Below, in pieces: positions 7,608 through 43,640 of a stretch of DNA of 64,000 nt. Source of the stretch: Radiobacillus kanasensis (lineage in GTDB: Bacteria > Bacillota > Bacilli > Bacillales > Amphibacillaceae); the NCBI RefSeq assembly GCF_021049245.1, contig NZ_CP088020.1, positions 2,672,001 to 2,736,000 of the forward strand. The letters are read 5' to 3'. How positions within the stretch are numbered: the stretch's first letter is position 1; each line of letters opens with the position of its first letter. A program made the position numbers and the translations under genes. Below the pieces are notes generated by a model, which saw only the letters and a program-made list of their open reading frames with translations, did no database searches and had not been told where the DNA came from.

Positions 7608-7631
7608 GAAGGGGAAACTACATATAGGAAG

Positions 7632-7723
7632 TCCACTAGGGGCGCCATAAAATGGCTGAGATAAGGTGTTAATCCTTGGTCCCTTTGAACCTGAACTGGT
7701 TAGTACCAGCGTAGGAAAGTGGA
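7632..7723 (+). promoter_or_regulatory. TPP (THI-box) riboswitch
   Basis: Helix P1 is TCCACT (7632-7637) with AGTGGA (7718-7723). Between them lie the conserved GGCTGAGA element (7654-7661) and CCCTTTGAACCTGA (7681-7694) that contact pyrimidine and pyrophosphate. With the terminator at 7811-7844 this is a transcription-attenuation switch that lowers tenA-thiD-thiM-thiE expression when thiamine pyrophosphate is plentiful. Confidence 0.95.
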
Positions 7724-7810
7724 GTCGGGACATCATGGGATTACGTACCATGGTTGTTTAGGTGAAGAACAATTTACTTTATTCTGTACCTAGTATCAAT
7801 TTCGTTTGAT

Positions 7811-32686: not shown

Positions 32687-33514
32687 TTAAAAAGGATTAT
32701 AGAATCGACTTCCATCGTAAAATGTAACGACTAAAGACACGGCAAATAATAGAAAAAATAGTCCCAGAGCTACAAAATCTGCTTTCACAAATGGACGGCT
32801 TCGATACCAAGTTCTCTTCTTGCTTTTGCCGAAACCCCTGAGCTCCATTCCATTACTAACCACTTCGATTCGGTCTAAGCTCGAAAAAATGAGAGGTATA
32901 ACAATGGCAACCGCATTTTTTATTCGGGAAGGTAACTTTTCTTTTCTAGATAAATCAATCCCACGGGCTTGTTGCGCTAGGGCAATAGTTCGATAATCTC
33001 TTTGGATATCTGGAATGTACCTTAAGGCGATTGCAATCGCATAGGCAATACGATAACTCACCCCAATTCGGTTCAAAGAAGAAGCAAATTCACTTGGGTT
33101 GGTTGTAACAATAAATAAGAGAGCGGCTGGAATCACAACAAAATACTTAAGTGTAATATTAAGTTGATAGAATAGCTGTTCCACTGTTAGATCATAATGA
33201 CCCGGAAGTTCCCACCACACATGTAGGCTATCATAGATGTCTACCCCTTGTTGTGGAGCAAACACATAGATTGCTATATTATTAATCAAAAGAAAAAGAA
33301 GAATCAGAACTAAAATAAACGAAACTTCTTTAAATCGAATCTTTGATATTGTAAAAATTACAATGCTTAACACGAACATCAAGCTTAGTACTCTCGTATC
33401 GTAAGTAAGCATCGCAGCAAACGACCAGAGAATAAAACATATTAATTTGGTTGCTCCGGAAAGAGAATGAATAGGAGATTTTCGATCTATATATGATAAC
33501 ATCTCAGCCGCCAT
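32687..33514 (-). CDS. ecfT: ECF transporter transmembrane (T) component
   Basis: 275 residues, five or six membrane helices. QQARGIDLSRK near 182 and ELRGFGKSKKR near 224 are the two Ala/Leu-Arg-Gly coupling motifs that dock in the ATPase grooves. It overlaps the ATPase gene by one base (TAATG). Last gene of the T-box operon, serving the S component encoded upstream. Confidence 0.9.
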   Translation of the reverse strand: MAAEMLSYIDRKSPIHSLSGATKLICFILWSFAAMLTYDTRVLSLMFVLSIVIFTISKIRFKEVSFILVLILLFLLINNIAIYVFAPQQGVDIYDSLHVWWELPGHYDLTVEQLFYQLNITLKYFVVIPAALLFIVTTNPSEFASSLNRIGVSYRIAYAIAIALRYIPDIQRDYRTIALAQQARGIDLSRKEKLPSRIKNAVAIVIPLIFSSLDRIEVVSNGMELRGFGKSKKRTWYRSRPFVKADFVALGLFFLLFAVSLVVTFYDGSRFYNPF

Positions 33515-35214
33515 TATCGTTCCTCCCTATCCACATCGATGAAATGTTGGACAAATTCTTTAGGATTGGCTATGTCCATTTTGAGAGCTAATTCAAACAG
33601 AGAGGTTTCCTTTAAATGAGCTAACTCTATTATTCTTTGATCCATTAATATGTTTACAGCTGTATCATCCGCCAACTTCTTTCCATCAGATATCACGATT
33701 GCTCTAGGCGTATATTCAAGCATGAGATGCATGTCATGAGTAATCATCAAAATAGTAACACCTAGCTGACTTAACTCCCTTAAAAATTCCATCATCTCCG
33801 TGTAGTGTCGATAATCCTGTCCAGCTGTTGGTTCATCTAAAATAAGTACTTCAGGCTCCATCACAAGAATGGAGGCTATAGTCACTCTTTTTTTCTGACC
33901 GAAGCTTAAAGCAGAAATTGGCCAATTGCGAAAAGGAAACAATCCACAAAGCTTTAATGTTCCCTCCACTCTTTCTTTTATTTCAGTATCAGGAACTCCC
34001 CGCGCTTTCAACCCCATCGCTACTTCATCCATAATCATGTGCTTTGAAATCATATGATTGGGATTTTGTAAGACCATTCCAATCCGTTCTGAGCGTTCTT
34101 TCACCGTATCATTTGTAATGTCTTGTCCATTCAGCAAAATTCTGCCTTGTGACGGTTTCTCAAACCCACCAATAATCTTAGATAGGGTAGATTTTCCAGC
34201 ACCATTTTTACCGACAATACTCACCATTTCTCCCTTGCCAATCTGCACAGAAACCTGTTCAATGGTAACCTTATCTTTTGAGTAACCAAATGAGATATCT
34301 TTAAGTTCTAGACTCGGTTCAGAAATGGTTTCCTCTATCCTTTTTTGTCCCGAAGAAAACCATAGTTCAAAGTCCTCTTTACAGGAATCTATAGGAAGCG
34401 TATCGAGATGTTCCGGATGCATATCCGGAGTAACATCACAACCCGCATACTTTAGAGCCTTCAAGTATAGCGGTTCTCTTATATCATTTTCCAACAAAAC
34501 AGATGAAGAAAGAACTTCCGCAGGAGTTCCATCCATGACAATGCTTCCGTGATTCATCACAATAATGCGATCCACTTTTTCATGCAACACATCTTCCAAC
34601 CGGTGCTCGATGATGATAACCGTCTTATTCATTTCTTGCTGGATAGAATCAATTAAAGTAATCGCTTGTTTCCCAGCAGCAGGATCCAGGTTGGCTAGTG
34701 GTTCGTCAAATAAAAGAATGTCAACGTCATCTACTAACACTCCACCCAAAGCAACGCGTTGCCTTTGTCCCCCAGACAATTCATGAACAGATGCATCCAA
34801 ATAAGCATCCATGTCAACTAGCTTTGCAACTTCTTCCACACGACTTTTCATCTCCGATTGGTTCCATTCATCGTTTTCCAACGCAAAAGCGATGTCTTCT
34901 CCAACGGTTAGTCCAATAAATTGGCTGTCTGGATCTTGAAGAACCGTTCCGATCAGCTTCGAACGGTCAAAAATCCCTTGTTTATTAACATCTTTTTGAT
35001 TGATTTTCAATGAGCCCGTGATGTCCCCTTTGTAGGAAAAAGGAGCCAACCCATTCAAGCAATGAGCAAGTGTACTTTTCCCAGAACCAGAAGGTCCAAC
35101 AATGACTACTTTTTCACCTTGGTTAATGATTAGATTAATGTCATGTAAAGTTGGTTTCGTTTGGCTTCGATATTTAAACCCAAAATCCACGAATTCTATC
35201 ATTGGTTTTCCCAT
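33514..35214 (-). CDS. ECF transporter ATPase with two fused ABC domains
   Basis: 566 residues, both EcfA-type domains in one chain. Domain 1: Walker A GPSGSGKST (40-48), signature LSGGQRQRV (146-154), Walker B LLFDEP. Domain 2: Walker A GKNGAGKST (335-343), signature reading LSFGQKKRV, Walker B LILDEP. The second signature has F for the usual G. It energises transport with EcfT. A dedicated single-chain ATPase suggests a group I-like, substrate-specific ECF system rather than the shared housekeeping module. Confidence 0.92.
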   Translation of the reverse strand: MGKPMIEFVDFGFKYRSQTKPTLHDINLIINQGEKVVIVGPSGSGKSTLAHCLNGLAPFSYKGDITGSLKINQKDVNKQGIFDRSKLIGTVLQDPDSQFIGLTVGEDIAFALENDEWNQSEMKSRVEEVAKLVDMDAYLDASVHELSGGQRQRVALGGVLVDDVDILLFDEPLANLDPAAGKQAITLIDSIQQEMNKTVIIIEHRLEDVLHEKVDRIIVMNHGSIVMDGTPAEVLSSSVLLENDIREPLYLKALKYAGCDVTPDMHPEHLDTLPIDSCKEDFELWFSSGQKRIEETISEPSLELKDISFGYSKDKVTIEQVSVQIGKGEMVSIVGKNGAGKSTLSKIIGGFEKPSQGRILLNGQDITNDTVKERSERIGMVLQNPNHMISKHMIMDEVAMGLKARGVPDTEIKERVEGTLKLCGLFPFRNWPISALSFGQKKRVTIASILVMEPEVLILDEPTAGQDYRHYTEMMEFLRELSQLGVTILMITHDMHLMLEYTPRAIVISDGKKLADDTAVNILMDQRIIELAHLKETSLFELALKMDIANPKEFVQHFIDVDREER

Positions 35215-35265
35215 TTATGTATTTCCCCTGCCGAATGTTTTTCTCTTATTCTACCATTATAATAG

Positions 35266-35304
35266 AAAGTGAAAAGCCGAGATTTACTCTCGACTTTTCA
35301 CTTT
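35266..35304 (-). terminator. Strong hairpin between S-component and ATPase genes
   Basis: AAAGTGAAAAG and CTTTTCACTTT (11 bp) plus inner CGAGA/TCTCG. On the minus strand TTTCTATT follows, so it could attenuate read-through and set the ratio of S component to ATPase/EcfT, or end the first transcript. Confidence 0.55.
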
Positions 35305-35310
35305 AAGTGC

Positions 35311-35384
35311 GGTTCAAAAAGGAGGATGAAAAGCGCAAAGAAGTTCAAAGCGATATTCACCGGACTTTTTGAACATCCTCTTTA
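35311..35384. repeat. Intergenic element with permuted inverted arms
   Basis: GGTTCAAAAAGGAGGATG (35311-35328) and, inverted, CTTTTTGAACATCCTC (35365-35380). The two sub-blocks TTCAAAAAG and GAGGATG occur in opposite order in the arms. It lies between two genes of one operon. It resembles short palindromic elements I recall from related genomes. Confidence 0.4.
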
Positions 35385-35936
35385 AGCATCTAGCTCTAAA
35401 CTATTACTCTTACTACGTGTTTTGGCATAGGCAGTCAAAAGTATGGTTCCGAGCACTCCAGCAGTAAGGATGTTAAACCCTCCAGCAACTAATCCTTGTA
35501 CGAATACTTTGTTCGCCGGTTCCGCATATATAAGAATATCTAATAATGGCGCGAGTACAAACCAACCTATTCCATTTGCTACAATTTGGGCGATATTAAA
35601 GGTAACGATTTGTTTCAATCCAAAGTTTCCTTCTTCAACTTGAATTCGTTTCGAAAATAACCCAACCGTTAACCCTACAAAACCAGAAACGATCACCCAG
35701 CTCCACCAAACGGAGCCCCAAACAATAGCATCAGTTAGGGCGTGACCGATGAACCCGATTAAAAAACCTGCTACAGGACCAAAAAGAATCGCCATAAGTG
35801 CTAAAAAGGCATAAGAGGTTTGAAAGTTCGTGTTAGGCACACCTGTTGGAATGGCGGCAAAACGGTTTAAGATAACGAATACTGCAGTTCCGATTCCAAT
35901 TGCTACAATAGTTTTTGTTGCTAATCCTTTACTCAA
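35382..35936 (-). CDS. ECF transporter substrate-binding (S) component, UPF0397 family
   Basis: 184 residues, six membrane helices. [20 protein letters not shown] and [20 protein letters not shown] are family signatures (PF07155). UPF0397 S components have been predicted to carry methionine-related compounds in some Firmicutes; the substrate is not proven. Start is TTG at 35936, ten bases after AAGGAG. It follows the SAM hydrolase gene by 14 bases. Confidence 0.85.
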
Positions 35937-35950
35937 TCCACTTCAACTCC

Positions 35951-36808
35951 TTAATTATAAATAATTTTTGGTGCTTTTCTTATCGAAATTCGCCAACTTG
36001 ATCCTGTCCCAATGTTGTATGCTTTTGCAAAGGAGCCTTGATTAATGGCCACCGCTAAGTTGTCTAAAGAATTTACATACACCAATGGTTCCCCGACACA
36101 AATATCTGCGAATGAACGACCATAGGTCATCAAGTTTTTATAAATCTTTCTAGAATCTTGAAGAATAGTTACTTCTAACGTGTCCCCATATTGGACATCA
36201 AAGGATAAAAACAGTTCTCGGCTGATATTGGTCCATAGATTACCAAATCGAACATCCAAAATATCGATAATTCCAGTGATCTGATCCTGATGTTTCTCTG
36301 CTTCAATAAAAGGAAGAGTGACAACAGAAGAAAGCGGTAACTCTGGTCCAACCTCCTCAAAACTTATCACACCAGATGCTAAACGTGCTCCTGTATAAGC
36401 GTAAACATCTCGGCCATGGAATGTATGTGAAGCTCCTGACTGCGGTAATCTATTTACTTCTTCATCAATGATTCTTACTGCTTTTATTCCAATTTTTTGT
36501 TGGATATGCGTGAGCGTGCCATTATCGGGAGTCACAATATACTGATTGGAATTTGTTTTTACAACAACACTTTTTCGATCTGATCCTACTCCCGGATCAA
36601 CAACAGATACAAATACCGTTTCTTCTGGCCAGTAGGTAACCGTTTGTAATAGTCGATAGGAGCCCGCCCAAATATCGTAGGGGGGTATATCGTGGGTTAA
36701 ATTGAATATTGGAATATTCACATCCACGGAAAACGCTACCCCGTTCATTGCATTAACCGCCCCATCACTTAATCCAAAATCTGTTTGTAATACCAATGCT
36801 TGACTCAT
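35951..36808 (-). CDS. S-adenosyl-L-methionine hydrolase (adenosine-forming), DUF62
   Basis: 285 residues. LQTDFGLSDG at the N-terminus, NLTHDIPPYDI, VDPGVGSDRKSVVVKT, TPDNGTLT and FHGRDVYAY are the conserved SAM-site segments of PF01887, the hydroxide adenosyltransferase/fluorinase family. The reaction splits SAM to methionine and adenosine using water. First gene after the T-box leader, with AAAGGGG eight bases before the ATG, and in one operon with the ECF transporter. Confidence 0.9.
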   Translation of the reverse strand: MSQALVLQTDFGLSDGAVNAMNGVAFSVDVNIPIFNLTHDIPPYDIWAGSYRLLQTVTYWPEETVFVSVVDPGVGSDRKSVVVKTNSNQYIVTPDNGTLTHIQQKIGIKAVRIIDEEVNRLPQSGASHTFHGRDVYAYTGARLASGVISFEEVGPELPLSSVVTLPFIEAEKHQDQITGIIDILDVRFGNLWTNISRELFLSFDVQYGDTLEVTILQDSRKIYKNLMTYGRSFADICVGEPLVYVNSLDNLAVAINQGSFAKAYNIGTGSSWRISIRKAPKIIYN

Positions 36809-36971
36809 ATATATATCCCCTTTCTCTGTGTTTTATATCTAGACTACGTTTAGAATGAGTCTTTCATAATCACTGTTTTGTAAAGTTTCCGTCTCTATGA
36901 AGCTTTGTTAATCCCTCCTCATCTCCATTGGAGAATCCTTGTTGTGCCCTCATGGAAGTTTTTCTCCATAT

Positions 36972-37264
36972 AAAAAACCACGCCCTTATCTCGTAACAGA
37001 TAAGGACGTGGTTTGATTCACGTGGTACCACCTTAATTTGCTATTTGCTCACGCAAGATAGCCTCAACAAGTACAGAACATCCTAAGTTCATATACCGTG
37101 GTTTTGATAACGAGTACCAATTCTCGGCGAAACCTACTCATATCCTTGGATACGTTCAGCCCGCGGCTCAGAGTCCATTGTTCAAATCCGTATTTTTGCT
37201 TCTTCTCAGCTACCGAAGCTCTCTTTGAAAAATAACTAGATTTTACTTTCTCTCTTCATTGCCT
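36972..37264 (-). promoter_or_regulatory. T-box leader controlling the SAM hydrolase-ECF operon
   Basis: On the minus strand: stem I begins near 37264 (GAAGAGAG, AAAGTA loop-E half), the specifier loop is near 37186-37170, the T-box core GGTGGTACCACG is at 37032-37021, and the terminator stem with T run at 37013-36972. The specifier strand reads GAACAATGGACTCTGAG. ATG (Met, 37178-37176), followed by the expected purine, is the choice that fits the genes; TGG (Trp) or CAA (Gln) cannot be excluded by eye. A TATAAT lies about 30 bases upstream. Confidence 0.9.
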
Positions 37265-37417
37265 TTTATTATTGAGGATAATATTATACGAAAAAGAAAA
37301 TTTATGCAATACTTTTTTTGAAATTTTTTGAATGCTCAAAACTTTGCTTTTTTAAGAATGGAATGTCACGATTCCATCCCCTGCATATGATATTCAAGTG
37401 ATTATTGACGTTAGGGA

Positions 37418-43547: not shown

Positions 43548-43640
43548 TGGCGGAGAAGGTGGGATTCGAACCCACGCGACAGTTGCCCGTCCTAATGCAT
43601 TTCGAGTGCATCCCCTTCAGCCGGACTTGGGTACTTCTCC
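43548..43640 (-). tRNA. tRNA-Ser (anticodon CGA)
   Basis: 93-base tRNA with a long variable arm. Acceptor GGAGAAG pairs with CTTCTCC, CCA is encoded, the T-loop is GTTCGAATC, and the anticodon loop CTCGAAA has CGA at 43604-43602, reading UCG. The minus-strand promoter is immediately upstream. It is a single tRNA, not part of an rRNA cluster. Confidence 0.96.

Follow-up and report, generated by a model that had tools for sequence, protein, structure and literature searches.

A predicted methionine T-box leader, a DUF62 SAM hydrolase and a UPF0397 ECF transporter at one locus of Radiobacillus kanasensis

In Radiobacillus kanasensis (Amphibacillaceae), a T-box leader precedes the gene for a DUF62 S-adenosylmethionine (SAM) hydrolase and the genes of an energy-coupling factor (ECF) transporter, whose S component belongs to the family UPF0397. 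The locus lies on the minus strand of a 64,000-nucleotide stretch of DNA, hereafter the window (contig NZ_CP088020.1 of assembly GCF_021049245.1, positions 2,672,001 to 2,736,000). Judged from the sequence, the leader is methionine-specific, and the pairing of DUF62 with the S component is conserved among relatives. On balance, we favour a response to methionine starvation, in which DUF62 would recover methionine from SAM and the ECF system would import a SAM-type or methionine-yielding substrate.

The leader, the enzyme and the gene order

The locus comprises the following features, given in the direction of transcription (nt, nucleotides; aa, amino acids).

37283 to 37309, minus strand: candidate promoter for the leader transcript, recognized by eye: TTGCAT and TATAAT at 15-nt spacing
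36999 to 37268, minus strand: T-box leader, RF00230 at 113.7 bits (E 2.2e-24)
37176 to 37178, minus strand: predicted specifier triplet AUG (Met), its position calibrated on T-boxes of the same genome
37024 to 37032, minus strand: T-box core GGUGGUACC, antiterminator bulge, predicted to pair with tRNA ACCA
36975 to 37014, minus strand: intrinsic T-box terminator, a 17-pair stem followed by a T run
35951 to 36808, minus strand: DUF62, SAM hydroxide adenosyltransferase (SAM hydrolase), 285 aa; PF01887 and PF20257, relatives in the PDB, triad D71-R78-H131
35382 to 35936, minus strand: UPF0397 ECF S component, 184 aa, TTG start; PF07155 at 177 bits, PRK13661 at 251.6 bits; AlphaFold2 model with S-component fold (predicted local distance difference test score 93.7)
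35300 to 35381, minus strand: one copy of an interspersed repeat that matches the genome 57 times, mostly in part
35266 to 35304, minus strand: terminator-like 17-pair hairpin, then TATAAT and TAGAAT; found by a looser hairpin rule, fold computed
33514 to 35214, minus strand: two-domain ECF ATPase, 566 aa, with two ABC_tran stretches and DUF3744
32687 to 33514, minus strand: EcfT transmembrane component, 275 aa, PF02361 (CbiQ) at 104.2 bits

The leader scores above the RF00230 gathering value of 93 bits, and a single copy of its core GGTGGTACC is present in the window, where 0.08 would be expected. The fold computed for the core-terminator stretch has an energy of -32.1 kcal/mol (z -6.2), a stability equalled by 0 of 200 shuffles; the stem I stretch, taken by itself, does not exceed its shuffles in stability (z 0.64). 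The TTGCAT-TATAAT pair upstream is missing from the hits of our promoter scan, which excluded 15-nt spacing.

The ruler for the specifier was provided by the T-box leaders of the host genome itself, 24 of which were found (21 above the cut-off), including those of ileS, valS, serS, leuS, proS, cysE, pheS and others. Read by eye, these leaders place the specifier directly or one base after GAA, followed by a purine and then by the lower helix. The loop in the window reads GAA-CA-AUG-G-A-CUCU, and the register is settled by the relatives, which show the same arrangement at several spacings: GAAC-AUG-G-CCUC in two loci (L104 and L146), GAAA-AUG-G-CCU in two others (L068 and L130), and GAACA-AUG-G-CCUC in many. 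In a family set of 159 genomes with 98 DUF62 loci, all 60 leaders with a detected core have AUGG 0-3 nt after GAA (2 nt in 48); the specifier pattern itself demands ATGG, so the result is that every one of the 60 cores had a match upstream. The base on the acceptor side is consistent with this assignment: 55 of the 60 cores contain UGGU, with A instead in 4 and C in 1, and ACCA terminates the tRNAs of this genome that have the anticodon CAT. Two other triplets were considered. AAU is excluded by the GAAC-AUG-G sequence of L104 and L146 and by a U before AUG in 2 of the 60, and UGG is disfavoured, since the following base would then be C in 53, T in 5 and A in 2. A loose version of the pattern also matches 3 of the 23 other T-boxes of the host genome, at other positions, indicating that position matters; by eye, none of these others has AUG at the specifier place, two of them (L016 and L024) not being clearly readable. 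An earlier note on this stretch had taken the T-box to respond to uncharged tRNA-Met and had named a specifier codon other than ATG as the finding that would speak against it. No other codon was found, and we conclude that, as far as the sequence tells, the specifier is AUG and the T-box methionine-specific. The T-box with the unclear specifier at positions 140475-140731 of the genome (L016, minus strand) lies before a transporter-like protein.

The DUF62 protein is probably a SAM hydrolase, as the earlier note had it. It contains both SAM_HAT_N (169.3 bits) and SAM_HAT_C (81.1 bits), and its PDB relatives are PH0463, a chlorinase and fluorinases. The triad is strongly conserved: all 153 DUF62 relatives have D71 and R78, and 145 of them have H131. 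According to the available part of one report, the Asp-Arg-His triad is confined to DUF62 proteins and missing from halogenases (PMC10491745), marking the hydrolases; the score of the window protein for the fluorinase model TIGR04507 likewise remains below the cut-off (94 against 400 bits). The domains and the triad are common to the window protein, PH0463 and StDUF62. The window protein differs in its setting, a T-box locus with an ECF transporter, and in falling below the cut-offs of the NCBI (R)-SAM hydrolase equivalogs NF058624 (142.6 against 350 bits) and NF053629 (125.3 against 470 bits), so that its stereospecificity cannot be read off. Some DUF62 relatives are named "DNA-directed RNA polymerase subunit delta", in PDB entry 7ccg and in an NCBI record (P0132).

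The earlier note described a single minus-strand unit. All five parts (T-box, DUF62, S component, two-domain ATPase and EcfT) were found in that order and on that strand; whether they form one unit is unsure, owing to the junction between the S component and the ATPase. This junction spans 167 nt and holds the 82-nt repeat, the 17-pair hairpin, and then TATAAT and TAGAAT. A single unit is doubtful because the motor genes lie after a strong hairpin, and the wording "fused by operon" is too strong for a locus where a terminator-like hairpin separates the S component from the ATPase. The hairpin is absent from the minus-strand hits of a stricter terminator scan, which recovered only a 5-pair core on the plus strand, and the promoter-like matches around the junction are at the chance level (13 seen, 15.1 expected). 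A genome of the same genus (G118) has an 87-nt gap at this place, which contains a hairpin of the terminator-like kind and a TAGAAT but not the repeat, and the gap of Aquibacillus halophilus (L068) resembles it. Terminator-like hairpins were found in 10 of 36 such gaps examined, and many of the other gaps measure 0-60 nt. In this lineage, the T-box may thus control DUF62 and the S component, with the ATPase and EcfT transcribed separately. The S protein of Radiobacillus deserti (P0002) is 92% identical to that of the window, and the genome is close to that species.

The repeat at 35300-35381 is of the type GATGTTCAAAAAG ... CTTTTTGAAC and has matches, mostly partial, at 56 other places of the genome. 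By eye, a similar-looking repeat upstream of DUF62 in Bacillus chungangensis (L134) appears to be inserted in the Met T-box leader, after stem I and before the core.

DUF62 and the S component as neighbours

The adjacency of DUF62 and UPF0397 that the earlier note suggested surveying is conserved. In the family set, 97 genomes have a DUF62 match (some of them fragments only), and 98 loci were kept out of 103 rows after 5 fragments were dropped. A strong S component is present in 26 of these genomes, a count that leaves out 9 weak ones (E between 3e-5 and 9e-4); it sits 18-658 bp behind DUF62 in 25 of the 26 and at a contig start in the remaining one (G029). The 62 family genomes that lack a DUF62 match all lack a strong S component as well (p 8e-7, Fisher test, which here and below ignores kinship). 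A class set of 398 genomes yielded 75 rows for the S component, of which 63 were entered and 12 weaker ones left out; 56 are strong (E < 1e-50), and 40 of these lie 10-183 bp behind DUF62. Counting full-length DUF62 only (51 of 54 rows, three fragments dropped), 40 of the 50 genomes that carry it also carry a strong S component (p 1.7e-32). Among 80 named loci, 35 have the S component within 2.5 kb of DUF62, and the linked loci come from Bacillaceae, Enterococcaceae, Clostridia, Erysipelotrichia and one Treponemataceae bin. Three genomes (G028, G034 and G036) each hold two DUF62 genes, and the S component accompanies only the one that has a T-box core.

In a tree of 110 of the 119 S proteins (the rest being identical), the label "no DUF62" requires 7 changes, against 19.6 when shuffled. 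The unlinked proteins form one 11-row clade, one divergent 4-row clade and scattered rows, one of which (L159) is the contig-end case of G029. Seven DUF62-less loci with an S component and an ATPase (L255, L267, L268, L270, L271, L274 and L275) follow a similar large protein; that of L274, the one scanned of this set, scores for Ig-like domains. In another group of loci (L106, L110, L112, L123, L125, L129 and L136, from Erysipelotrichia and a Eubacterium bin), one or two extra DUF62 genes with intact triads follow the T gene, alongside divergent S components (49-67 bits).

The T-box accompanies this gene pair in the family, with a core at no fewer than 24 of the 25 S-linked DUF62 loci. The cores were found by a pattern that missed one leader recovered by Rfam (G148, locus L186) and probably a second (G111, where the specifier is present and the core variant), and these counts are therefore lower bounds. 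At 20 DUF62 loci lacking the T-box pattern, the known RNA elements were the T-box of L186 and one SAM-I riboswitch (L028, on the strand opposite to DUF62). A T-box was also found at 6 of 10 DUF62 loci in one further set screened with Rfam, and at 16 of the 35 named DUF62-S loci, 15 of them by pattern and eye (the specifier of L085 being unread) and L119 by Rfam. The T-box suggested by the earlier note as a companion to survey is thus frequent in Bacillaceae-type relatives and seldom found outside the Bacillaceae; it is not a constant component of the system.

Candidate substrates of the transporter

In the proposed response, uncharged tRNA-Met would bind the T-box through the AUG specifier and through pairing of UGGU with A-CCA, the antiterminator would form, and DUF62 and the S component would be transcribed. 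The family assignment and the triad suggest that DUF62 then splits SAM, perhaps chiefly its (R,S) epimer, which is of no use to most enzymes, into methionine and adenosine. The linkage of the genes suggests that the transporter imports a SAM-type sulfonium or another methionine source for DUF62. The host genome has 13 SAM-I riboswitches, by eye before metK, metN, metE/metH-like and metB-like genes. A T-box suits a SAM-fed route better than such an S-box because a cell that imports SAM would look SAM-replete to its 13 S-boxes while its methionine pool is possibly empty. We put forward only tentatively, as a plausible idea that we would not yet expect to hold, that UPF0397-type ECF transporters import SAM, possibly its (R,S) epimer, in partnership with the hydrolase, and that a T-box is employed since SAM riboswitches would misread imported SAM.

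Import of SAM or a methionine-related compound had been proposed in the earlier note, and gene context is what speaks for it: the linkage itself and the SAM-I, metK and metN-metI-type neighbours at other loci. One Oscillospiraceae locus (L122) has a SAM-I riboswitch and metK, followed by DUF62, S component, ATPase and T component; a further promoter could fit into the 262 nt that separate metK from DUF62. Six of 30 loci screened (L300-L305) have the end of a NIL-domain ATPase and an ABC permease, genes of the metN-metI type, upstream of DUF62 and the S component, with one gene for a Trep_Strep membrane protein in between. At L309, a SAM-I riboswitch lies 45 nt upstream of a divergent S component without DUF62.

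Several observations limit or weigh against a SAM-fed starvation response. Of the 73 family DUF62 loci that have no S component beside them, no fewer than 36 have a T-box core, and the S component was found nowhere in the 17 searched genomes with such a locus, 14 of them with a T-box; the "self-contained device" of the earlier note is therefore no general rule. These loci suggest that the enzyme would also work on internally made SAM, perhaps the (R,S) epimer. In the other direction, 16 of the 56 strong-S genomes of the class set have no DUF62 match at all. The residues of linked and unlinked S components barely differ, with nothing clear beyond V19/L and G160/A shifts (8 of 64 rows unlinked). 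For these two reasons, the substrate need not be that of DUF62. The T-box is also scarce in other sets, with one, below the gathering score, at 12 DUF62-S loci of one screen, one at 13 such loci of another, and none at the gathering score in L248, L253, L257 and L264; 10 S loci without DUF62 likewise held no known RNA element at the gathering score. An lplA gene adjoins 4 of 30 loci (L292, L293, L294 and L296), two with DUF62 and two without. Moreover, metK was found in 50 of 51 S-bearing genomes searched (a chosen subset, in which the S match was strong in 46 and weak in 5), and the sole miss (G003) is a 96% complete draft. SAM auxotrophy was accordingly rejected as the driver of import, and the importer would not replace SAM synthesis, because metK is kept. 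With regard to the enzyme, the available part of PMC12120602 reports that StDUF62 is mostly inactive at 150 mM and nearly fully inactive at 300 mM NaCl or KCl; the authors question hydrolysis as the role of the protein and suggest another physiological one.

The strongest alternative, which we consider unlikely if still worth serious attention, separates the two functions. The ECF system would import another methionine source or precursor (a methionine derivative, a thioether nucleoside or a methyl-thio compound), DUF62 would recover methionine from dead-end (R,S)-SAM, and only the signal would be shared. The T-box cores at DUF62 loci without an S component, the genomes of these loci in which none was found and the S components without DUF62 all fit such an arrangement, as does the substrate of StDUF62, which in the available parts of the two reports acts on (R,S)-SAM (PMC10491745) with a confirmed preference for this epimer (PMC12120602). 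However, a shared regulon alone predicts the S component equally beside other methionine genes, whereas DUF62 is its neighbour in 25 of the 26 family genomes and 40 of the 56 class genomes. Behind DUF62 genes without an S component, clusters of open reading frames, judged by eye and without a family scan, held no recurrent substitute transporter; at five loci, the gene after DUF62 is UbiA-like.

Less probable still is that the S family carries something general, such as lipoate or another vitamin, the link with DUF62 being an operon habit in part of the Bacillota. The lplA neighbours and the 11-row DUF62-less clade could be explained in this way, but the link between DUF62 and the S component recurs in Bacilli, Clostridia, Erysipelotrichia and the Treponemataceae bin, and we regard the idea as improbable.

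The last alternative takes the protein for a riboflavin transporter, after its names in NCBI and Pfam. The PF07155 score and the predicted fold identify it as an S component. PF07155 is itself entitled "ECF-type riboflavin transporter", and the score for PRK13661, "ECF-type riboflavin transporter substrate-binding protein", well exceeds the cut-off of 99 bits; what points to riboflavin here is a name. The protein has 3553 relatives at E <= 1e-3, and the NCBI name among the best 120 of these 3553 is riboflavin. On the other side, no PDB chain matched the sequence at E 1, RibU structures included, and in a structure search the model came about equally near to ThiT, FolT and RibU, which is uninformative on the substrate. 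The host genome has its RibU elsewhere (3p5n, E 7.7e-45), under a flavin mononucleotide (FMN) riboswitch, with a second FMN riboswitch before ribD-like genes, and the leader upstream of the window protein is a Met T-box. The riboflavin name is unlikely for this S component, and we rejected riboflavin transport as a candidate with very little chance of being right.

If the SAM proposal is true, the large UPF0397 family, now named after riboflavin, would consist of SAM transporters, and the NCBI name would have to be corrected. Known SAM carriers come mainly from intracellular bacteria and yeast, and the present one would be a SAM importer in free-living bacteria. For the DUF62 SAM hydrolases, whose cellular role is questioned in the available part of PMC12120602, a Met T-box and a linked importer would offer one, namely to supply methionine from SAM during starvation.

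Known systems and annotation

The annotation is not new, as the gene set is widespread and already labelled as a methionine-regulated ECF transporter, presumably a SEED/RAST label; the substrate assignment is putative. In the available parts of two reports, the label is in print for MtsA and MtsC (PMC9423846, PMC5066943), and, as in the window, an S component is annotated with a methionine link. These descriptions, as far as available, mention neither a substrate nor a T-box, and the comparison is one of annotation, not of sequence. The MtsA gene of Streptococcus suis follows SSUSC84_0347, a "DNA-directed RNA polymerase subunit delta" in the available part of the source, which is perhaps a DUF62 protein, likened here by gene name alone. 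A further parallel may be found in Listeria, where Wels et al. 2008 (PMC2494555), in the part available, list lmo2587 as a Met T-box gene, "Met related cytosolic hypothetical"; as here, a Met T-box precedes a cytosolic gene, unnamed in that case and at most a candidate DUF62 counterpart. No second paper carrying that name came up in a search. Among the papers listed in searches of the open-licence literature, none dealt with a SAM-importing ECF transporter, a DUF62-ECF operon or the substrate.

The locus also resembles the dedicated (group I) ECF transporters, in which the S, ATPase and T genes lie together. It differs from them in its single fused two-domain ATPase and in the possibly separate transcription of the ATPase and T genes.

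Elsewhere in the window, a thiamine pyrophosphate (TPP) riboswitch is located at 7628-7734 on the plus strand (82.2 bits), and a tRNA gene at 43551-43640 on the minus strand.

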